Below, one piece after another: positions 3,637 to 28,920 of a stretch of DNA of 29,684 nucleotides. The stretch's first letter is position 1; every line of letters starts with the position of its first letter. The stretch is taken from positions 1 to 29,684 of IMG/VR virus record IMGVR_UViG_3300047557_000495; one strand, 5' to 3'. A program made the translations under genes and the position numbers. This stretch comes from a virus. A model generated the notes under the pieces. It was not told the origin of the DNA. It saw only the letters and a program-made list of their open reading frames with translations, and searched no databases.

Positions 3637-5217
3637 ATGGGAATCCTAGCCACCATCCGAGAGAAGCTCTTTGCTGCTCCTGCTAACAAGTACGAAGGGG
3701 CAAGCCAGTCTTTGCGCCGTTCGTATCTGGATACGTCTTACACGTCTGCTCGTTTCGACGTTACCAGTTCGACCCGACAAGCCATTGTCCGTAAATCGCG
3801 TTTCTTTGAACAGAATAACGCGATAATGAACAGGTTGGGAGATCTGTTTGAGTCTTACACAGTTGGCTCTTCGTTCTCTGTTCAACCTGCTTCTAGCGAT
3901 CCCGCTTGGAATCTTAAGGCTAAGAAGTGGTTTGATATTTGGAGCCGATATCCCGACATCGGCTCCCGTCAGTCGTTCTCGACGCTCATGGGCCAAGCTG
4001 CCCGTGGGTGGTTCTATGACGGTGAGTCTTTCATTCTGCTTACCCGTGGAGAAAGCGGAAAACCGCGACTCCAGTTGATTGAGGCTCAATCCATCGCAAC
4101 TCCGGTGGGTATGGAGTCTGACCTGACCGTGTTTGACGGTATCCGGTTTGACCCGAAGACGGGACGTGCTGTTTCCTACTTCATTGGTTCCGAGAAAACG
4201 CAGGGAAATCTAGTCGATGTTCGCTCCATTCCTGCGGATTCGGTCGTTCACATTTACGAGCCAAATCGTCCCGGTCAACTCCGAGGTCTACCGTTCGTCA
4301 GTGCGGTTATCAATGATCTCCACGATCTCGACGACCTCCAGAAGCTGGAGATGGAAGCTTGCAAACTCGGAGCCTCAGTCGCTCAGATCGTCAAGACCGT
4401 AAGCGGTGAGATCCAAGCCTCTAGTCTCCGCGCTGGCATTGGAGCCAATGTTACGCCTAACACTGCCGAGACGTATTACGAGCAGGTTTTCGGTTCTTCA
4501 GTTAAAGTTCTTAAGAACGGAGACACTTTCGAGCAGTTCGCCACCGAGCGTCCCGGTGTCAATATGCGCGAGTATTGGCGGCAATTGACCGAGAAGGTCT
4601 GTGCTGGTGTTGGTATTCCTTACGTTTTGGTCTATCCCGAATCCATGCAGGGAACTGTCTATCGCGGAGCGTTAGACATGTCCGCTGTTTGGTTCCGCTC
4701 GCGCCATCAAGTGATGGCTTCTGCTGCTCGTCGTATTTACGAGTACGTCATGGAGTATGCGATCAAGAGCGATCCGACTCTGAATGACGCTCCGTCTGAC
4801 TGGTACGAAGTCTCCATCACTGCTCCGCGCTCGCCCAATGTTGACGTTGGACGTAACTCGGCGGCTCAACTTGCAGAACTTGAGGCCGGTGTTGTGACTT
4901 ACGATGAAGTCTACGGTGCGCGTGGACTTGATTGGCGTTCTGCTCTTGAGGCTAAGGCTCAACAAGCTTTATATATTAGAGAGCTTGCAAGCAAATACGG
5001 ACTCCGAGTGTCGGAAGTTTCTACTATACAAGAGGATCGGCCAGAGCGTATTAAGACCGAGCCGACAATTCCGCAGCCTCCAGAGCCAGATCCTAGCAAC
5101 AGCCCGAGTCCTGTTGCGGCACCTGATAGCGGTTCTGATTCTGAGGTTGTCGATGAAACGGTTGTGACCGCTTCAGTCAAAAAGCAACGTAAGCCGAGAG
5201 CCAAGAAAACCGAATGA
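3637..5217 (+). CDS. Portal protein, lambda gpB type
   Basis: The 526-residue protein should form the dodecameric ring at the capsid vertex through which DNA enters and leaves. The N-terminal half follows the lambda portal pattern: SLRRSYLDTSYTSARFDVTS, then an RKSRFFEQNNAIMNRLGDLF stretch and a YDGESFILL strand. The central part has the stem and clip-like segment, with NDLHDLDDLQKLEMEACKLG. The last 60 residues, after about residue 465, are rich in Pro, Ser and Glu and end in a basic KKQRKPRAKK tail, so they are probably disordered. The length matches lambda gpB (533 residues). It starts directly after the previous stop and overlaps the protease gene by four bases. Confidence 0.93.
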   Translation: MGILATIREKLFAAPANKYEGASQSLRRSYLDTSYTSARFDVTSSTRQAIVRKSRFFEQNNAIMNRLGDLFESYTVGSSFSVQPASSDPAWNLKAKKWFDIWSRYPDIGSRQSFSTLMGQAARGWFYDGESFILLTRGESGKPRLQLIEAQSIATPVGMESDLTVFDGIRFDPKTGRAVSYFIGSEKTQGNLVDVRSIPADSVVHIYEPNRPGQLRGLPFVSAVINDLHDLDDLQKLEMEACKLGASVAQIVKTVSGEIQASSLRAGIGANVTPNTAETYYEQVFGSSVKVLKNGDTFEQFATERPGVNMREYWRQLTEKVCAGVGIPYVLVYPESMQGTVYRGALDMSAVWFRSRHQVMASAARRIYEYVMEYAIKSDPTLNDAPSDWYEVSITAPRSPNVDVGRNSAAQLAELEAGVVTYDEVYGARGLDWRSALEAKAQQALYIRELASKYGLRVSEVSTIQEDRPERIKTEPTIPQPPEPDPSNSPSPVAAPDSGSDSEVVDETVVTASVKKQRKPRAKKTE

Positions 5218-19817: not shown

Positions 19818-20045
19818 ATGAAATGTCCGTCTTGCAACTGCATTTTTGCCGTGAGTCTGCGTGATTTAGCGCGGGAGTTGGGTTCGGTCAGTTCACCGGC
19901 AAAGGCCAAAACTGCCCGTGCGAATGGAAAGCGCGGGGGGAGGCCAAAGAAGACCTATGAAACAAGAGTTGATCCCAAGTCAGAAACAGTCCGCGCTCGC
20001 GGTGATGGCGTCCAAGTTCTCGGTGGAGCCGACACGTCTGCTTGA
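19818..20045 (+). CDS. Small CxxC protein with GGRPKK basic motif
   Basis: The 75-residue frame begins MKCPSCNCIF (a CxxC knuckle) followed by a helix SLRDLARELGSV and a basic stretch SPAKAKTARANGKRGGRPKK at about 26-45. The latter occurs at the ends of many phage DNA-binding proteins and is AT-hook-like. The last 30 residues overlap the annealase gene in another frame and look like unselected read-through, so the functional protein may be the first 45-50 residues. Only one metal knuckle is present, so a full zinc ribbon is not formed. A small regulator at the head of the recombination operon is plausible. Confidence 0.55.
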   Translation: MKCPSCNCIFAVSLRDLARELGSVSSPAKAKTARANGKRGGRPKKTYETRVDPKSETVRARGDGVQVLGGADTSA

Positions 20046-20619
20046 TACACTCCGCACAACCCTGATGCCGAAAGCCACCAATGAGGAGCTTTTGGCGTTT
20101 GTGGTGGTCGCTAACCAGTACGATCTCAACCCGTTCACAAAAGAGATTTACGCATTCCCCGGTCGTTCTGGCGGAATCACTCCGGTCGTCTCTGTCGATG
20201 GCTGGATAAAGCTAATGAACCGGCATCCGCAGTTTGACGGAATTCTGTTCACCACCGACGAGAAAGACGGAAAGACCCACTCGGTCACCGCGACCATCTA
20301 TCTCAAAAATCGCACGCATCCGGTGGAGGTCACCGAGTACTTCAGCGAGTGCAGCCGCAACACCGAACCGTGGAAGGTCAACCCTCGTCGAATGCTGCGA
20401 CACAAAGCATTGATCCAATGCGCTCGCGTTGCGTTTGGGTTCTCTGGCATTGCTGACGACGAAGAAGCTGTCCCGCAAGTCGCACTCAACGTCACTCCGT
20501 CTCGGCCCATCTTCCGCAGCAAGCTTGAGCCGACGGTCGAGCCTCCGGTTGTGATCCCGAGTGTCAGTGTCGAGACCAACGCCCAACCCGTGACCGAGGA
20601 AGGAGCTACCAATGAGTGA
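19957..20619 (+). CDS. bet: Single-strand annealing protein, Bet/RecT family
   Basis: The start is placed at ATG 19957 (MKQELIPSQKQSALAVMASK); an upstream ATG at 19918 would add a non-conserved stretch. Residues 45-100 carry the family core, with ANQYDLNPFTKEIYAFP, then TPVVSVDGWIKLMNRHPQF, and residues 140-175 the NPRRMLRHKALIQCARVAFGF element. Bet-type proteins anneal complementary single strands during phage recombination and replication. The C-terminal 45 residues are acidic and Pro- and Val-rich, likely flexible. It overlaps the nuclease gene by eight bases, and annealase plus nuclease is the usual recombination pair. The length (220) is slightly below lambda Bet (261). Confidence 0.9.
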   Translation: MKQELIPSQKQSALAVMASKFSVEPTRLLDTLRTTLMPKATNEELLAFVVVANQYDLNPFTKEIYAFPGRSGGITPVVSVDGWIKLMNRHPQFDGILFTTDEKDGKTHSVTATIYLKNRTHPVEVTEYFSECSRNTEPWKVNPRRMLRHKALIQCARVAFGFSGIADDEEAVPQVALNVTPSRPIFRSKLEPTVEPPVVIPSVSVETNAQPVTEEGATNE

Positions 20620-21715
20620 CGAACGCTTAGGGTTGCCGTCCGCATCGTCTGCGAGCCGATACGCTGCTTGTCTCGGTAGCTGGCGGTTGGAGGAGCAAAT
20701 CGCAGAAGGTGCAGCAACGAATGACGCGACCATTGGAAACCGCATCCACGCCGCTCTTGCGCTGGAGCCGGTGGAGAATCTGACCTCAGACGAGACGTGG
20801 ACCATCGACCGTTGCCGAGAGCAGGAACTGGAGTTGGTCAAAGCGACGTTTCCAGAAGCCACCGAAGAGCCGAATGTGTGGCGAGAGAAACGTCTGTGGT
20901 CCATCGACGATCGTGGGGTCAAACTGTGGAGCGGTAAGCCAGACGTCATCTACGTTGTCGGCTCCGCTGGTCTGATCATCGACTACAAGTCCGGTCGCGG
21001 TGCAGTCGAGAATGCTGCCGAGAATCTCCAGTTGCGATGCTTGGTCGCTCTGCTCGACGAGAACTTCGGGTTCACCTTTGACCGCATCACGGTGGCAATT
21101 GTGCAGCCACTTGCAGGACTGCCGAGTGTCGCGGTCTACGAGTCAGCGGATATCCGAAATGCAATCGCTGAGTCTGCGGAACTGATGGAGCAGATCCAGA
21201 AGATCGGGCATCCGCGAACTCCATCCGAGTCCGCTTGCAAGTACTGCAAAGGAAAACCCTATTGCGCCGAAGCGCGAGAGTTGGCCGTTGCTGGTCCGCT
21301 CACAAACACTCCAGACGGCATAACGCCCGACGCTATAGCCGCCACACTGACCAACCAGACTCTTGCAGCGTTTCTTGACCGTGCAGCGCAAGCAGAAGCC
21401 GTTATTGAAGCTTGCCGCACTGAGGCCCGACGGAGGCTTGCAGAAGGGGACTCAATCGAAGGATGGACGCTGAAGGAAGGTGCAGTGCGTGAGACCATCA
21501 AAGACACCGAGACCGTTTATCTTCGATTCATCGAAAGTGGCGGAACTTATGAGGACATCATGCCAGCAATCACGATCAACAAAACGAAGCTCAAAGACGC
21601 GTTGAAAGTGGCAACCGAAACCAAAGGAAAGGAACTCGACGCGAAGCTGACCGCTCTGCTCGACGGATGTATTGAATCGAAAGCCTCTCAACCCACACTG
21701 ACCCGAATCAAATGA
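20612..21715 (+). CDS. RecB/Cas4-like PD-(D/E)XK nuclease with Fe-S cysteines
   Basis: This 367-residue protein is probably the exonuclease partner of the annealase. A strong site (GGAAGGAG) eight bases before the ATG sets the start. Motifs are GNRIH (42-46), the Asp of SGKPD (111), and the catalytic IIDYKSG (Asp124 and Lys126). Four Cys are placed as in Cas4 and AddB Fe-S nucleases: Cys20 near the N-terminus and Cys209-x2-Cys212-x5-Cys218 after the nuclease core. The C-terminal 140 residues are helical and of unknown role. Resection of double-strand ends to give single strands for Bet is the likely function, as for lambda Exo, but with a different fold. Confidence 0.85.
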   Translation: MSDERLGLPSASSASRYAACLGSWRLEEQIAEGAATNDATIGNRIHAALALEPVENLTSDETWTIDRCREQELELVKATFPEATEEPNVWREKRLWSIDDRGVKLWSGKPDVIYVVGSAGLIIDYKSGRGAVENAAENLQLRCLVALLDENFGFTFDRITVAIVQPLAGLPSVAVYESADIRNAIAESAELMEQIQKIGHPRTPSESACKYCKGKPYCAEARELAVAGPLTNTPDGITPDAIAATLTNQTLAAFLDRAAQAEAVIEACRTEARRRLAEGDSIEGWTLKEGAVRETIKDTETVYLRFIESGGTYEDIMPAITINKTKLKDALKVATETKGKELDAKLTALLDGCIESKASQPTLTRIK

Positions 21716-22146
21716 ACCAGACTCACCCAATGGAACTCGTCCGTGAGTTCATGCGGACATTCCAGCAGTACGTCCCATCATCGCCAGTCATGCCCGATCC
21801 GGTGACGCAAAATCTCCGGTATCGACTGATCGACGAGGAAGCCCAAGAACTCAACGAAGCCACCGATAAGGTTGAGTATCTCGACGCTGTTGGTGATCTG
21901 CTTTATGTCGTCTATGGAGCCGCGCTCGCTGCTGGATTCTCTCCGCATCAAGTCGATGCTGCCTTCTGCGAGATCCACCGCTCAAACATGAGCAAGTGTT
22001 GGTCTGACGACGAGATCGACTCCATACCCGCTGACTGCCGGTCAACTCGGGTTGGCGATAACCGCCATATTGTCCGTCGCAGTGACGGTAAGATCGTGAA
22101 GAGTCCGTCTTACTCACCGGCTCGACTGGAGGGATACACTCGATGA
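21712..22146 (+). CDS. MazG-like nucleotide pyrophosphohydrolase
   Basis: The 144-residue protein contains the all-alpha NTP-pyrophosphatase signature: EEAQE at about 42-46 and DAVGDLLY with Asp58 and Asp62, then a helix HQVDAAFCEIHRSNMSK. The acidic clusters bind magnesium and the nucleotide. Phage enzymes of this type remove dUTP, modified nucleotides or ppGpp-like signals. The basic C-terminal 45 residues (DGKIVKSPSYSPARLEG) match the substrate-region ending seen in phage MazG and HisE-like proteins. It overlaps both neighbours by four bases. Confidence 0.85.
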   Translation: MNQTHPMELVREFMRTFQQYVPSSPVMPDPVTQNLRYRLIDEEAQELNEATDKVEYLDAVGDLLYVVYGAALAAGFSPHQVDAAFCEIHRSNMSKCWSDDEIDSIPADCRSTRVGDNRHIVRRSDGKIVKSPSYSPARLEGYTR

Positions 22147-22463
22147 GGCATCTATGGGCTAGGGGTTTTGGAAAGCTTTACCGAGACGCTGAACTGATCA
22201 CCACCGACGACGGAAAGACGTTCCTGCTGGCCGTCATTGAGTTTGAACAGCGCACGTTGGGGAACGGCAAGCCGTACTCGCAACGGGTCCAGTTCAGGTC
22301 ATTTGACCGCGACGACATGGAGATCGTGGACCAGCTAGTCGCTGGCACCTACGTCATGTTTGATGGGGACTGCGATGCGACCGCTGACAAGTCGCCAACC
22401 GGATGGTGGTACGCTAACCCTCGGGTCACTGGAAGGATTCACGAAATCAGTCATGCATCTTGA
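22143..22463 (+). CDS. Single-stranded DNA-binding protein
   Basis: The 106-residue protein has an OB-fold pattern: KLYRDAELITTDDGKTFLLAV, then FEQRTLGNGKPYSQRVQFRSF and AGTYVMFDGDCDA, with a final GWWYANPRVTGRI strand. A GGAGG site precedes the ATG. The C-terminus ends EISHAS and lacks the acidic DDIPF tip of bacterial SSB, so it would not recruit partners through that tip. That tip is found on a different small protein at 28633. The gene is in the recombination block, consistent with protecting DNA during annealing. Confidence 0.8.
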   Translation: MRHLWARGFGKLYRDAELITTDDGKTFLLAVIEFEQRTLGNGKPYSQRVQFRSFDRDDMEIVDQLVAGTYVMFDGDCDATADKSPTGWWYANPRVTGRIHEISHAS

Positions 22464-22875
22464 TTTCCACGTTTCAGGAATCCCGAAGGCTCAACCCAGA
22501 GTCAAAGCGTTCCGCCGTGGTAATCACGCTGGAGTCTACACGCCAGATTCCGCCGATGCGTGGAAGCAAGCGGTGCGTCAGGAAGCCACCGCAAACGCTC
22601 CAGAATCGCTTATAACGGGTCCGGTTAGGTTGCAGCTAGACTTCTTCCTTCCGAGACCAAAAGCGCATCTGGACAAGCACGGCATCCCGAAGCCGAAATC
22701 TCCGGTCTGGCATCCCAAGAAGCCAGACTTGGACAACCTCATCAAAGCGGTGACCGATGCGATCACCGACACTCAGCGTGTCTGGCTCGACGACTCGCAG
22801 GTCTACCAGATCACAGCGACGAAGACTTACGCTCTCCAGCACTCTGGATGCAGCGTAAGGATCAACGCTGAATAG
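22453..22875 (+). CDS. rusA: RusA-type Holliday junction resolvase
   Basis: The 140-residue protein (start ATG 22453, overlapping the SSB end by 11 bases) matches the RusA family: FHVSGIPKAQPRVKAF at the N-terminus, VRLQLDFFLPRPK, then KKPDLDNLIKAVTDAI with Asp92 and Asp94, and WLDDSQV with Asp113 and Asp114. These acidic residues bind magnesium for cleavage at junctions. An upstream in-frame ATG at 22360 would run through the SSB gene and is not used. It closes the recombination operon and is followed by about 200 non-coding bases. Confidence 0.92.
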   Translation: MHLDFHVSGIPKAQPRVKAFRRGNHAGVYTPDSADAWKQAVRQEATANAPESLITGPVRLQLDFFLPRPKAHLDKHGIPKPKSPVWHPKKPDLDNLIKAVTDAITDTQRVWLDDSQVYQITATKTYALQHSGCSVRINAE

Positions 22876-25216: not shown

Positions 25217-25966
25217 GTGAACATCACACAGCGCCGCCGCCGAGTCATGGCGGTTGGTTGCAGCCATGGGAACCGAGCCAATCAAGATGCGCTCGCTGCG
25301 GTCTTGCTCTTCCGAGAGAGATTCAAACCAGACGAGTTGATTCATCTGGGAGACGCCTATGATCTTGCATCGTTGCGGTCCGGTTCACTCCGCGACCCTC
25401 AAGACTCGGACCAAGCCGATGACTATCTCGACGATATCCAAGAGGGGGCCAAGTTCCTAGACGAACTTCGACCAACGGTGTTCACGATTGGGAACCATGA
25501 CGAGCGAGCCAAGAAGTATCTGAACCATCACAACGCTGTTGTGCGCGGATTCGCAGAGGCTGTATGGGAACGAATGATAAAACCAATTGAGAAACACTGC
25601 CACACATTCATCAAACACAATGACTGCCATGACAGATCGTTTTACAAGTTGGGCGGATTTCGATGGGGACATGGAGTCCTGTTTGGTGAGAACTTCCTTC
25701 GTGACTCCGCTGAGACTTTTGGCAACTGCGTTGTGGCTCATGCTCACAGAGCAGGTCAAGCGACTGGTCGAACGATGGGAAATCCGATGGGCTTTTGCTG
25801 CGGTACTTTGGCAGATGTTCCTGCAATGGATTACTCGGGGAAACGACGATCAACCCTAGCATGGTCCCACGGGATCGTGTTTGGTGAATACACCGACGAC
25901 GACGCTCAACTCTACCTCCACCAATGGCCTCAGAACGAACAGAATTGGCACCTGCCGAGCTTCTAA
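25217..25966 (+). CDS. Calcineurin-like metallophosphoesterase
   Basis: The 249-residue protein has the five motifs of this hydrolase superfamily: GCSHGN (14-19), HLGDAYD (43-49, GDxxD-like), IGNHDE (91-96), WGHG (150-153) and VVAHAHR (172-178, standing for GHxH). The first motif normally reads DxH; here Cys15 replaces the Asp. Substrates of phage members include DNA 3' or 5' ends, cyclic nucleotides and phosphoproteins. The C-terminus is Trp-rich. Start at GTG 25217; ATG 25247 is an alternative that removes the first 10 residues. It overlaps the next gene by 43 bases. Confidence 0.85.
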   Translation: MNITQRRRRVMAVGCSHGNRANQDALAAVLLFRERFKPDELIHLGDAYDLASLRSGSLRDPQDSDQADDYLDDIQEGAKFLDELRPTVFTIGNHDERAKKYLNHHNAVVRGFAEAVWERMIKPIEKHCHTFIKHNDCHDRSFYKLGGFRWGHGVLFGENFLRDSAETFGNCVVAHAHRAGQATGRTMGNPMGFCCGTLADVPAMDYSGKRRSTLAWSHGIVFGEYTDDDAQLYLHQWPQNEQNWHLPSF

Positions 25967-26184
25967 AGCGGCTTAGGCTCGCCATAGCGAACCAACCAGA
26001 AGAAGTCCCAGACGGCTGGCATACCGCCAACCAATGGGCCGAGATCTGGAACATCACGCCAAATGCTGCTGGAATCGTTCTCTCTCGGTCAGTCCGCATC
26101 GGAGAGATGGAGTCCAAGAAGTTCCGAGTCATCTGTGGAAACCGTGGAGCTTACCCGACAACACATTACCGACAAACCCAATGA
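25924..26184 (+). CDS. Winged-HTH-like small protein
   Basis: The 86-residue sequence has a helix (PAELLKRLRLAIANQ), then GWHTANQWAEIWNITPNAAGIVLSR (a helix-turn-helix), and a beta wing KKFRVICGNRGAYPTTHY. This resembles small phage winged-HTH regulators. It overlaps the phosphoesterase end and meets the next gene by ATGA. A regulatory role at the replication operon is possible. Confidence 0.65.
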   Translation: MASERTELAPAELLKRLRLAIANQPEEVPDGWHTANQWAEIWNITPNAAGIVLSRSVRIGEMESKKFRVICGNRGAYPTTHYRQTQ

Positions 26185-26363
26185 GATTCAGATCTAAAGC
26201 CAACCAAAACGTCATCGTGGAGTTCATCTCCGAGGCCCAACTCCGCATCGGTGAGACCAAGCGGCTCTGTATCGTCTACGAGCGTGAGGGATACTTCTAC
26301 GTTCGACCGAAAGCCGAGTTCTACGACAAGTTTTGTCTGGACGAAGGACCGAAGCCGAGTTAG
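26181..26363 (+). CDS. 60-residue unknown protein
   Basis: ATGA overlap sets the start. The protein has strands (NVIVEFISEAQLRIG, TKRLCIVYEREGYFYVRPKAEF) and an acidic end. The segment resembling VYEREGYFYVRPKAEF is weakly like the DUF1653 pattern, where a Tyr-Val-Arg-Pro motif follows similar strands, but the family assignment is not firm. It sits just upstream of the initiator region. Confidence 0.55.
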   Translation: MRFRSKANQNVIVEFISEAQLRIGETKRLCIVYEREGYFYVRPKAEFYDKFCLDEGPKPS

Positions 26364-26421
26364 CAGTAAGGAGTCAGCGCGAGCCGTAGGAAGCGAGCGA
26401 GGACAAACCATACCACAAGCC

Positions 26422-26532
26422 ATGTTCAACCAATTTATCCCCATCCTTTCCGTGTACGTCGCGTTGCTTGTGCGCGAGTTCCTACCACGGACTGGATGGG
26501 GTTTCTGTTTGTTACATGATCGTAGAAACTGA
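26422..26532 (+). CDS. Possible 36-residue membrane peptide
   Basis: The frame from ATG 26422 gives MFNQFIPILSVYVALLVREF, then a short tail. One hydrophobic span is predicted at about residues 5-18. Its leader ACCACAAGCC resembles other leaders here. It overlaps the beginning of the initiator gene. No family is known, so I keep it as tentative. Confidence 0.3.
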   Translation: MFNQFIPILSVYVALLVREFLPRTGWGFCLLHDRRN

Positions 26533-27265
26533 CTTCTTAGACCATTGGAAGACGCGACTTCTAACACGTCTTCTCAACACCGAAACAGCACCAATCCACG
26601 TTCTAAGGCTCTGGTCACATTGCCAGACCCGAAAGACGAGCCGATTCCCAGAATGGAACGCTGAGATCTTGTCCGCTGTCTGCAAGTGGAACGGTGACGC
26701 CAGCACATTCTGGAACGCCATGCTCCAGACATATTGCAAGGTGGAAGACGGATGTCTGGTGGCTCACCAATGGGACGAGGTTAACGCAAGCCTCATTGCC
26801 TCTTGGTCAAATGGAGGTAAAGGAGGAAGACCAAAGAAACCCAGAGATAACCCACGGGTTAACCCAGATGACGATCAGGTTATCCCACGGGTAACCCACG
26901 GGGTAACCGATAGAGAAGAGAAGATAGATAAGATAGAAAAGACAGAGAAGACGAAGGCTCCGAAGTCGCCATGGGAGGTTGCTTTCGGTCTTGAGATGCC
27001 AGACTCGCTGAAGAATGAGGACTGCCATCAGGCAGCCCTCCTTTGGCTTCAGTACAAGTCCGAGATGCGTCAGGGATACAAGAAGACGGGACTTAGCGCA
27101 TCGCTGACCAAATGGGCTAATGAGTTCTCACCACAAGAGTTTCCGGTGATCGTTCAGCACTCAATCGCTTCTGGGTGGAAAGGTCTATTCAGACCCAAAA
27201 GCCAGCTTGAGCTTCAACCGCAATCGCAACGCACTAAGGAACTCGACTGGAGGGACAGCCTGTGA
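26516..27265 (+). CDS. Replication initiator, lambda O-like plan
   Basis: Start ATG 26516 (MIVETDFLDHWKTRLLTRLL); an upstream TTG-type frame from 26468 looks unnatural. The 249-residue protein has an N-terminal domain (1-100), helical and Trp-rich, with AEILSAVCKWNGDASTFWNAM as a probable winged-HTH core. A basic GGKGGRPKK linker follows, then a disordered region encoded by iteron-like repeats (about 111-131) and a KIEK-rich segment. The C-terminal domain (160-225) carries ALLWLQYKSEMRQGYKK and SLTKWANEF. DNA-binding N-terminus, repeat-encoding linker, C-terminus and a DnaB gene downstream is the arrangement of lambda O with its origin. It overlaps the helicase by GTGA. Confidence 0.75.
   Translation: MIVETDFLDHWKTRLLTRLLNTETAPIHVLRLWSHCQTRKTSRFPEWNAEILSAVCKWNGDASTFWNAMLQTYCKVEDGCLVAHQWDEVNASLIASWSNGGKGGRPKKPRDNPRVNPDDDQVIPRVTHGVTDREEKIDKIEKTEKTKAPKSPWEVAFGLEMPDSLKNEDCHQAALLWLQYKSEMRQGYKKTGLSASLTKWANEFSPQEFPVIVQHSIASGWKGLFRPKSQLELQPQSQRTKELDWRDSL
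26846..26908 (+). repeat. Iteron-like repeats, candidate replication origin
   Basis: Three CCCACGGG cores start at 26851, 26884 and 26895, with flanks like ATAACCC before and GTTAACCC or GTAACCC after. The first is followed by a perfect palindrome GGGTTAACCC (26856-26865). Spacings of 33 and 11 bases put the cores on the same DNA face. A purine-rich A-rich tract follows (26911-26945), which could unwind. In lambda, four iterons lie inside gene O and are followed by an AT-rich region. The repeats are inside the initiator gene and in frame, so coding repeats alone remain a possible explanation. Confidence 0.55.
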
Positions 27266-28557
27266 GCAACCCTTACTTCGCTGAAGACGACGAGTTTGGT
27301 CTGATTGGGGCTTGTCTGACTGGAACCATCGACACTTGCGCTGATGCGCTCGCTGAAGTCCGAGTCGATTGGATAGAAACCCAATCGCTGAAAGACACTT
27401 ACGAGGTCATCAAGTCGATGGCTCAACAGAACCGCGCTCCTAGCCTTCCTGAGCTTGGGAAGGAATGGAAGAAGCTGAACGGCAATCAGCCCATCCCTTT
27501 CGAAGACTGGAATCGCGCAATGGAAGTCTGCCCATCACCGGCAAACCTTCCATACTACGTCAAAGGCATTACAGAAGCCGCTCACCGTCGCCAACTGCGG
27601 CTCGCAGGAGACCGACTGATACGCGAGTCCGCTGTCCTGACCCTCCAGCCAGATCAAATCGTCTCTAATGCCGAAGCAGGACTCAGCATTGAGGTCTCTA
27701 AGGAGACGCTCTCAACCTCAAAACAGGTCGCGGGGTCATTCATCGACTCAATGCAGGAGCGATTCAGTCGAAAAGGTACGCTCTCAGGAGTGACCACTGG
27801 CTTCCATTGGCTCGACGACAAGACCGATGGCCTCCAGCATGGCGAGCTTGCGATAATTGCGGCTCGTCCATCTATAGGCAAAACAGCAATCGCAATCGCC
27901 ATCGCAGAAGCAGCAGCAGTCAAAGCCAAGATCCCGACGCTGTTCATTTCGCTTGAGATGTCGAAGGAGGCCATCTTCAGAAGATCCGTCGCTTCGTTAG
28001 GCAAAGTACCGATGCAGAACCTTAAGAGCGGCAACCTTTCAGAAGGCGATATGCGCTCTATGACTCAAGCGTCTGGAAAGCTGGCGTCTAGTCCGCTCTG
28101 GTTCTTGGATGGCTCAAGCTCTCAAAGCATCGCCAGCATCACCGCCAACATCCGTCGAGCGGTTCGTAAGCACAAAGTGCGGCTCGTCATTATCGACTAC
28201 CTCCAGAAGGTCAAAGCAGCGGAGAAGTCCGAGAAGCGCACCTATGAGGTCGCAGAGGTCAGCGGTAAGCTCAAAGACATTGCCGTGCAAACAGGAGTGG
28301 CTTTGCTGTCACTTGCACAGTTGAACCGCGAGAATGAGAAAGACAAAGGCCGACAACCTCGGCTGACTGATCTCGCAGATTCCGGTCAGATCGAACGAGA
28401 CGCTGACCTAGTAATGCTCTTAGACCGAGACCGCAAAGAAGCCAAAGGCGAAGCATCAATCGTCATTGCAAAGCAACGAGACGGAGAATGTGGCCTCGTT
28501 AAGCTCTGGTACGATGGACAGTATTGCCGCTTTGGAGAGATCGCTCCAGATACCTAA
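27262..28557 (+). CDS. dnaB: Replicative DNA helicase, DnaB family
   Basis: The 431-residue protein should unwind DNA as a hexamer. The N-terminal domain (1-150) has the DnaB-N helical pattern, ending in a linker (STSKQVAGSFIDSM). The RecA-like core has Walker A ARPSIGKTA (201-209), Walker B VIIDYL (309-314), AQLNRE (352-357), a LADSGQIERDADLVMLL stretch and KQRDGE (404-409), all in the DnaB order. GTG start in a GTGA overlap with the initiator and a GGAGG site upstream support the start. The slightly short length compared with E. coli DnaB (471) is normal for phage. It is followed by a perfect 6-4-6 dyad. Confidence 0.95.
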   Translation: MSNPYFAEDDEFGLIGACLTGTIDTCADALAEVRVDWIETQSLKDTYEVIKSMAQQNRAPSLPELGKEWKKLNGNQPIPFEDWNRAMEVCPSPANLPYYVKGITEAAHRRQLRLAGDRLIRESAVLTLQPDQIVSNAEAGLSIEVSKETLSTSKQVAGSFIDSMQERFSRKGTLSGVTTGFHWLDDKTDGLQHGELAIIAARPSIGKTAIAIAIAEAAAVKAKIPTLFISLEMSKEAIFRRSVASLGKVPMQNLKSGNLSEGDMRSMTQASGKLASSPLWFLDGSSSQSIASITANIRRAVRKHKVRLVIIDYLQKVKAAEKSEKRTYEVAEVSGKLKDIAVQTGVALLSLAQLNRENEKDKGRQPRLTDLADSGQIERDADLVMLLDRDRKEAKGEASIVIAKQRDGECGLVKLWYDGQYCRFGEIAPDT

Positions 28558-28573
28558 AACCCAACGATGGGTT
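28558..28573 (+). promoter_or_regulatory. Dyad overlapping a -35 hexamer
   Basis: AACCCA and TGGGTT with loop ACGA form a perfect 6-4-6 repeat right after the helicase stop. The right arm supplies the first two bases of TTGACA. This fits an operator that would block the following promoter. Related dyads occur at 19784 and 23012. Confidence 0.45.
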
Positions 28574-28599
28574 GACACCATAAACCAAGTCTGTAAACT
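28572..28599 (+). promoter_or_regulatory. Sigma70-type promoter candidate
   Basis: TTGACA is followed after 16 bases by TAAACT, with four of six bases of the -10 consensus. It drives the gene at 28633, which starts about 34 bases later with a G-free ACAAACACC leader. The consensus -35 is the best promoter-like element I found in the window. Confidence 0.5.
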
Positions 28600-28632
28600 G
28601 ACCCGCGACGGTACAAATCCCCCACAAACACC

Positions 28633-28920
28633 ATGCATATCGGCAAGATTGACGTTACGAAGATCGACAAGTCGTTTCTGTTTCGAGGCAAGTCTGGAAC
28701 TTATCTCGACGTTGCGCTTATCCCAAACAAGTCTGGCCGTGATCAATACGGCAATGATGGAATGATCGTTCAATCAGTGAGCAAGCAAGCCAGACAAGAA
28801 GGAAAGAAAGGTCCTATCCTTGGTAATTATGTTGATATGGACCAACGACACAGTGAGCCAAAGCAAAAGACAGTTAGTGCTAGAGATCCTATTTGTCCCG
28901 AAGATGACATTCCATTTTGA
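28633..28920 (+). CDS. ssDNA-binding-like protein with SSB acidic tip
   Basis: The 95-residue protein has an OB-like beta pattern (HIGKIDVTKIDKSFLFRGKSG, then TYLDVALIPNKSG) and an amphipathic middle (VSKQARQEGKKG). Its C-terminal octapeptide PEDDIPF is the tip that bacterial SSB uses to recruit helicases, primases and nucleases. The conserved small-phage family with this start and tail is, to my memory, uncharacterised but widespread. Proximity to DnaB suggests that it coats the unwound strand and recruits host proteins. This is inferred; the tip itself is seen directly. Confidence 0.7.
   Translation: MHIGKIDVTKIDKSFLFRGKSGTYLDVALIPNKSGRDQYGNDGMIVQSVSKQARQEGKKGPILGNYVDMDQRHSEPKQKTVSARDPICPEDDIPF

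Follow-up and report, generated by a model that had tools for sequence, protein, structure and literature searches.

Replication origins located inside initiator genes have long been known, and so has the arrangement in which DnaB replaces the helicase loader, as with the initiator gene 18 and the DnaB gene 12 of phage P22. For pSK41 Rep, PMC5703833 describes an N-terminal domain that binds four boxes placed centrally in rep, a linker encoded by the origin that can be deleted if the origin is supplied, and a C-terminal domain that is genus-specific. For PLE RepA of Vibrio satellites, PMC7145576 places the iterons in a non-coding region. Most environmental phages have no known origin. Here we compare these systems with a locus of the IMG/VR virus record IMGVR_UViG_3300047557_000495, analysed as a window of 29,684 nucleotides (the whole stretch of DNA under study), within which a sequence-only reading had placed a candidate replication origin inside an initiator gene.

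Layout of the locus

The initiator gene starts at an ATG at 26516, which agrees with the conserved MIVE/MIIE start of its relatives. The features of the locus are as follows:

26516..27265, + strand: initiator gene, 249 aa, of which residues 4-149 match phrog_9474 'replication initiation protein' (E 7e-8)
26516..26815, + strand: N-terminal domain, predicted winged helix (AlphaFold2 model and VIA), presumed iteron-binding part
26838..26910, + strand: iteron array with AACCCA-type cores (linker DNA, synonymous diversity and repeat statistics)
26851..26858, + strand: CCCACGGG, copy 1
26884..26891, + strand: CCCACGGG, copy 2
26895..26902, + strand: CCCACGGG, copy 3
26856..26865: perfect palindrome GGGTTAACCC, overlapping the inverted repeat AACCC-AC-GGGTT (26849-26860)
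26909..26955, + strand: tract rich in purines and in A+T, containing GATAGA/AGAGAAGA repeats of 9 bp and proposed as unwinding element
26960..27262, + strand: C-terminal domain, swapped among relatives directly 3' of the tract, of at least three kinds
27262..28557, + strand: dnaB, phage replicative helicase (DnaB_C, E=2e-75)
28558..28573: second AACCCA palindrome, AACCCAACGATGGGTT, an inverted repeat formed by the iteron core, directly behind the stop codon of dnaB

The order of N-terminal domain, iterons, AT/purine-rich tract, C-terminal domain and helicase gene bears out the lambda-like layout that the sequence-only reading had proposed. The array occupies codons 108-132 of 249, which places the putative binding boxes centrally in the initiator gene. 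The sequence-only reading had noted that DnaB follows, encoded by the phage in place of a loader, and its gene does lie directly next, the GTG start overlapping the stop codon of the initiator. All 42 relatives checked have a long reading frame at the position of dnaB that either adjoins the initiator or overlaps it. Before the replication genes (19876-22872), the window carries a recombination module made up of a RecT-family annealing protein, a PD-(D/E)XK exonuclease and a RusA resolvase.

The phrog_9474 profile also matches several homologs. The C-terminal half of the window initiator has a weak match to phrog_678 'O-like' (E=9e-5). At E<=0.1 the window initiator matches no Pfam family, RepA_N (PF06970), DUF1376 and DUF6291 included, and a search for close homologs of it in annotated phage genomes gave a single weak C-terminal match.

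The iteron array and the adjoining tract

The three CCCACGGG cores originally described were confirmed at the exact positions 26851, 26884 and 26895 of the + strand, at intervals of 33 and 11 bp; the repeat unit, however, had to be revised, since the true unit is an 11-bp tandem with the core AACCCA. Within the window the cores start at 26838, 26849, 26861, 26882 (ATCCCA), 26893 and 26905 (AACCGA), with core-to-core spacings of 11, 12, 21, 11 and 12 bp, and the spacing order 11-12-21-11 is common to several relatives (e.g. L325). Two further CCCACGGG are found in the window, at 25866 (+) and 4001 (-), each isolated. Over the whole 29.7 kb, CCCACGGG and AGAGAAGA, the latter at 26912, are the only 8-mers present three times within 60 bp, and both fall in this stretch. 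A Markov-1 null yields 0.14 such cases per window, with any case at all in 10 of 100 runs, and 5,000 protein-preserving synonymous shuffles never attained three CCCACGGG in the gene (mean 0.15).

The perfect palindrome reported for the first repeat is present, and so is the purine-rich tract after the repeats: positions 26900-26959 are 82% purine and 62% A+T, against about 48% A+T in the surroundings. The GC skew, which had been put forward as an indicator, speaks neither for nor against an origin, as its raw maximum lies near 25886 with a small amplitude and the detrended extremes lie elsewhere; over the whole window, neither GC nor AT skew has a clear extremum at the array.

Selection on the DNA rather than on the protein

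Synonymous diversity was computed on 43 distinct genes of the window's clade. It averages 0.50 over the N-terminal domain, 0.056 over the array (codons 111-132) and 0.097 over the purine tract (codons 133-147), a drop with a Mann-Whitney P of about 1e-10, and the constrained stretch spans about 26837 to 26941. Aligned related initiator genes therefore have nearly frozen synonymous sites over both array and tract, a constraint at the level of the DNA, and free variation of the repeats with the protein kept is not the case in these relatives. This comparison, which the sequence-only reading had itself named as a possible refutation, came out in favour of an origin.

The linker DNA of relatives, of which 57 were fetched for comparison, carries the same 11-bp tandem with core AACCCA; a relative whose protein is 38% identical (L055) has seven units 11 bp apart, in most of which the CCCA core is exact. 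As 11 cannot be divided by 3, the frame rotates from one unit to the next (NPxx, THGx, PTGx). Inserts of 33 bp, equal to three units, occur in relatives such as L016. In L032, around 4270-4330, at least four units at 12-bp spacing remain in a single frame and read NPRDNPRDNPRDNPRD, whereas the usual array has an 11-bp spacing and rotates the frame.

We have also analysed a motif-blind set of homologs, fetched by N-terminal-domain alignments alone with queries that exclude the linker, and thinned to 21 window-family genes (window included) and 59 DUF1376 genes. In this set, in which the seed sequences of the alignments originated in the motif scan, AACCCA is counted 87 times against 23.1 +/- 4.0 in synonymous shuffles of the window family and 141 times against 51.8 +/- 5.9 in those of the DUF1376 genes, and helically phased AACCCA pairs number 95 against 4.5 +/- 2.4 and 107 against 7.6 +/- 3.4, respectively. 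With no motif supplied, the hexamer most often repeated at 11 and at 22 bp is again AACCCA, in both families. Of seven relatives between 29 and 42 kb in length, six contain the pair AACCCAN6AACCCA exactly once, and the seventh has none at that spacing.

Arrays outside the gene

Homologs that consist of the N-terminal domain only provide a natural experiment in which selection at the DNA level can be told apart from selection at the protein level. At least eight non-coding (AACCCA N5)x3 loci are found among the matches listed, placed behind a shortened N-terminal-domain homolog and before dnaB; in one of the eight (L137) the contig ends there. We compared 59 distinct homologs that end right after the N-terminal domain (117-121 aa where listed), and 52 of them have at least two AACCCA between the stop codon and the next gene. 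In these non-coding arrays the spacing is exactly 11 bp in 167 of 173 cases, the hexamer is observed 228 times against 9.5 in shuffled DNA, and the 5-bp spacers vary. The gene after the array is dnaB by Pfam (DnaB, DnaB_C) in the cases tested, and a GATAGATAGA-type tract is found 3' of the array in these homologs too. Since the array is kept between stop codon and next gene, it persists where it is untranslated, outside coding sequence and beside the same domain and dnaB. Two domain-only homologs, L517 and L530, have AACCTA instead of AACCCA in their non-coding arrays.

The AACCCA iteron across initiator families

The (AACCCA N5)x3 scan was run on IMG/VR, and among 80 loci examined of the matches listed, 55 are coding and carry the GG-type linker motif of initiators; further matches belong to other initiator-type clusters. 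A scan with a 10-bp period, intended as negative control, gave 45 of 80 loci with the initiator linker motif among the matches listed, many of the remaining ones being (AACCC)n runs. As initiator linkers also appear in this second scan, it cannot prove the 11-bp specificity, which rests on the synonymous-shuffle test of the motif-blind genes. Profiles were run on 76 proteins picked, among the matches listed, from the 11-bp and the 10-bp AACCCA scan: 29 match DUF6291 and 27 match DUF1376, two models that may overlap on the same proteins, 14 match phrog_9474 and some match DnaD-like families. Comparison of the window-family and DUF1376 N-terminal-domain profiles detected no homology (hhalign probability under 1%).

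Genes without AACCCA mostly have another short repeat at the corresponding position, often of 11 bp (ACCGGCCGGTT, AACCGACCGAT, CAACGCCCGTT, CCCCCCTATAG). The type of iteron goes with the tree of the N-terminal domain: its clustering on the DUF1376 tree is strong, with 7 changes against 13.6 when shuffled, which is expected if domain and iteron evolve together; the relatives with other iterons possibly represent altered specificities, and could serve to map the recognition residues. Other short iterons, such as ACCGnCCGG, AACGnnCGT and CCCCCCTATA, were noted in L367, L368, L360; L376, L416, L434; and L402, L443, L447. The DUF1376 linkers often have AACCAnn heptads (peptide LTTNHKPLTTNHK) 3' of the iterons (L060, L066, L131, L371-L450), and these heptads are perhaps the unwinding element of such genes. 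An annotated CRISPR spacer match falls at 2861-2890 of L452 (Vibrio phage 1.183.O), in the repeat-bearing linker of its DUF1376 gene.

We consider it rather likely that AACCCA, repeated with every turn of the helix (at 11 bp, with variants of 10 and 12 bp), constitutes a common 'origin code' of several phage initiator N-terminal-domain families that have no detectable sequence homology (phrog_9474-like, DUF1376/DUF6291 and DnaD-like), written for the most part in the codons of the linker and at times directly beyond the gene. If this is true, a simple pattern could locate the origins of thousands of uncultivated phages, and the NPxxTQxxPxx linkers of annotated 'primosomal proteins' would be origin DNA read as protein. 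The occurrence of one core in such families also raises the question of common ancestry of the winged-helix domains or convergence. A limited search of the literature on phage initiator-gene iterons and DUF1376 replication did not find the 11-bp AACCCA iteron, nor was it met in the passages searched of PMC7466680, PMC5703833 and PMC7145576, which is weak evidence that an iteron common to several initiator families is apparently undescribed in the searchable literature.

Domains of the initiator

A first full-length AlphaFold model of the initiator was poor (pLDDT 65), and a domain-only model was used in its place: AlphaFold2 run on 33 relatives models the N-terminal domain as a winged helix, with a mean pLDDT of 90.7. 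Residues 88-146 have a pLDDT under 50, and this low-confidence stretch is probably a disordered linker. Searches by sequence returned no solved structure for the window protein, the N-terminal-domain profile or the DUF1376 domain. Using VIA, the model gives Z 6.1 to the MCM8 winged helix and Z 5.1-5.5 over 78-79 residues to the RepA_N N-terminal domains 4pql, 5kbj and 4pt7; these values are modest and insufficient alone for kinship, those to RepA_N being within the range of common arrangements. Foldseek alone gave no match at E<=0.001, the RepA_N domains ranking high in VIA only. Both 4pql and 5kbj are RepA_N initiators, the latter in a Rep-DNA complex. PMC7145576 describes 4pt7 as a RepA_N initiator. 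The N-terminal domain is thus a predicted winged helix with a modest resemblance in fold to RepA_N initiators. The earlier description of an unrelated initiator is too strong in view of the weak phrog_678 match and of this resemblance in fold.

Comparison of L009 with L027 shows that the N-terminal domain, the array, the C-terminal tail and the junction to the next gene are nearly identical, while the C-terminal domain between them differs; this is an internal domain exchange. The kind of C-terminal domain has no clear coupling to DnaB identity (A-A 0.64, A-B 0.64). A joint exchange of DnaB and C-terminal domain was considered and dropped, the two being uncoupled, and a contact between this domain and the helicase is left without support from co-variation.

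The palindrome AACCCAACGATGGGTT extends into the -35 of a promoter-like site at 28572-28599 (TTGACA-16-TAAACT), and similar variants recur in relatives possessing the corresponding gap. It is a possible operator of the initiator, outside the origin, and its position after dnaB at a promoter-like site suggests, as a lead only, that the initiator may also regulate transcription.

Proposed origin and alternative explanations

The frozen synonymous sites and the lambda-like layout support the candidate origin inside the initiator gene, and the repeats are very probably the site at which the phage starts copying its genome. Taken as a whole, the locus is, with high probability, best explained as an intragenic theta-type replication origin. 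By analogy with lambda and RepA_N systems, the predicted winged-helix N-terminal domain would bind the AACCCA iterons, which lie on one side of the helix, and the complex so formed would strain the adjoining AT/purine-rich GATAGA tract until it melts. The C-terminal domain would then recruit the phage DnaB, the product of the following gene, to the opened strand or position it there.

Conserved repeats near an initiator could also serve autoregulation, and iteron proteins often regulate their own synthesis. An array acting mainly as operator, through which the initiator represses or tunes its own gene and dnaB while replication starts elsewhere, would be in line with the AACCCA palindrome at 28558-28573 that runs into a promoter-like site, with its variants in relatives, and with a protein that may also regulate. 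We nevertheless regard it as unlikely, since the array is located 320 bp into the gene and away from the sole sigma-70-like promoter in 25900-28900 (28572-28599), the adjoining melting-type tract is under similar constraint, and the parallels with lambda and pSK41 speak against it. The swapping of C-terminal domains directly 3' of the tract could be accounted for by a conserved recombination site, frequent homogenisation lowering synonymous diversity; this is very improbable, as 11-bp phasing and the AACCCA core persist in protein families without detectable homology, and also in non-coding copies with varying 5-bp spacers.

Selection on the peptide, as a flexible linker of repetitive sequence (NPxx/THGx/PTGx), would fit the low-confidence, probably disordered stretch at residues 88-146, but an 11-bp period rotates the frame so that the units encode different peptides, the codons are frozen across the array, and the untranslated copies refute this explanation, to which we attach hardly any probability. 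Short repeats are common in low-complexity DNA, yet the notion that a linker of biased composition became repetitive by chance is refuted by the synonymous shuffles, the synonymous diversity, the Markov-1 null and the non-coding arrays, and its probability is negligible. An origin recognisable in sequence alone (an 11-bp AACCCA array in the linker, an AT-rich tract and, in the window's family, dnaB) would allow testable origin assignments in many uncultivated phages and prophages.

Comparison with known systems

In lambda, the iterons of ori lambda lie in the middle of gene O, between the N- and C-terminal domains (about codon 103-145), and an AT-rich tract directly 3' of them is followed by a gene of helicase function, all of which is like the window. 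In a repeat test with synonymous shuffles, lambda O, a positive control with an established origin, gave 29 repeat pairs against 6.6 +/- 3.2, densest at codon 103, and the window initiator gave 28 against 9.0 +/- 3.6, densest at codon 106. The two differ in that the iterons of lambda, four in number, are 18 bp long and spaced by 20-24 bp, whereas the window has 11-bp units with core AACCCA, and in the next gene, which is the helicase loader P in lambda and DnaB itself in the window. The latter succession, initiator then phage-encoded DnaB, is also that of P22.

The layout of the window gene is also that of pSK41 Rep, a RepA_N protein which has a winged-helix N-terminal domain (predicted as such in the window), central boxes and an exchangeable C-terminal domain (PMC5703833), and the non-coding iterons of PLE RepA (PMC7145576) resemble the arrays of the domain-only homologs. 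With respect to RepA_N initiators, the window gene differs in having no RepA_N Pfam match, another iteron and an adjoining phage dnaB. The DUF1376/DUF6291 'primosomal protein' genes share with the window the linker position and the 11-bp AACCCA iteron, often with an AT-rich repeat tract after the iterons; unlike the window, they have an N-terminal domain without detectable homology to that of its initiator, a 3' tract often made of AACCAnn heptads, and, in the DUF1376 genes, a rarer dnaB (4 of 59 within the fetched stretch). The locus is best read as an intragenic iteron origin resembling those of lambda and RepA_N initiators, for which the phage encodes its own DnaB.
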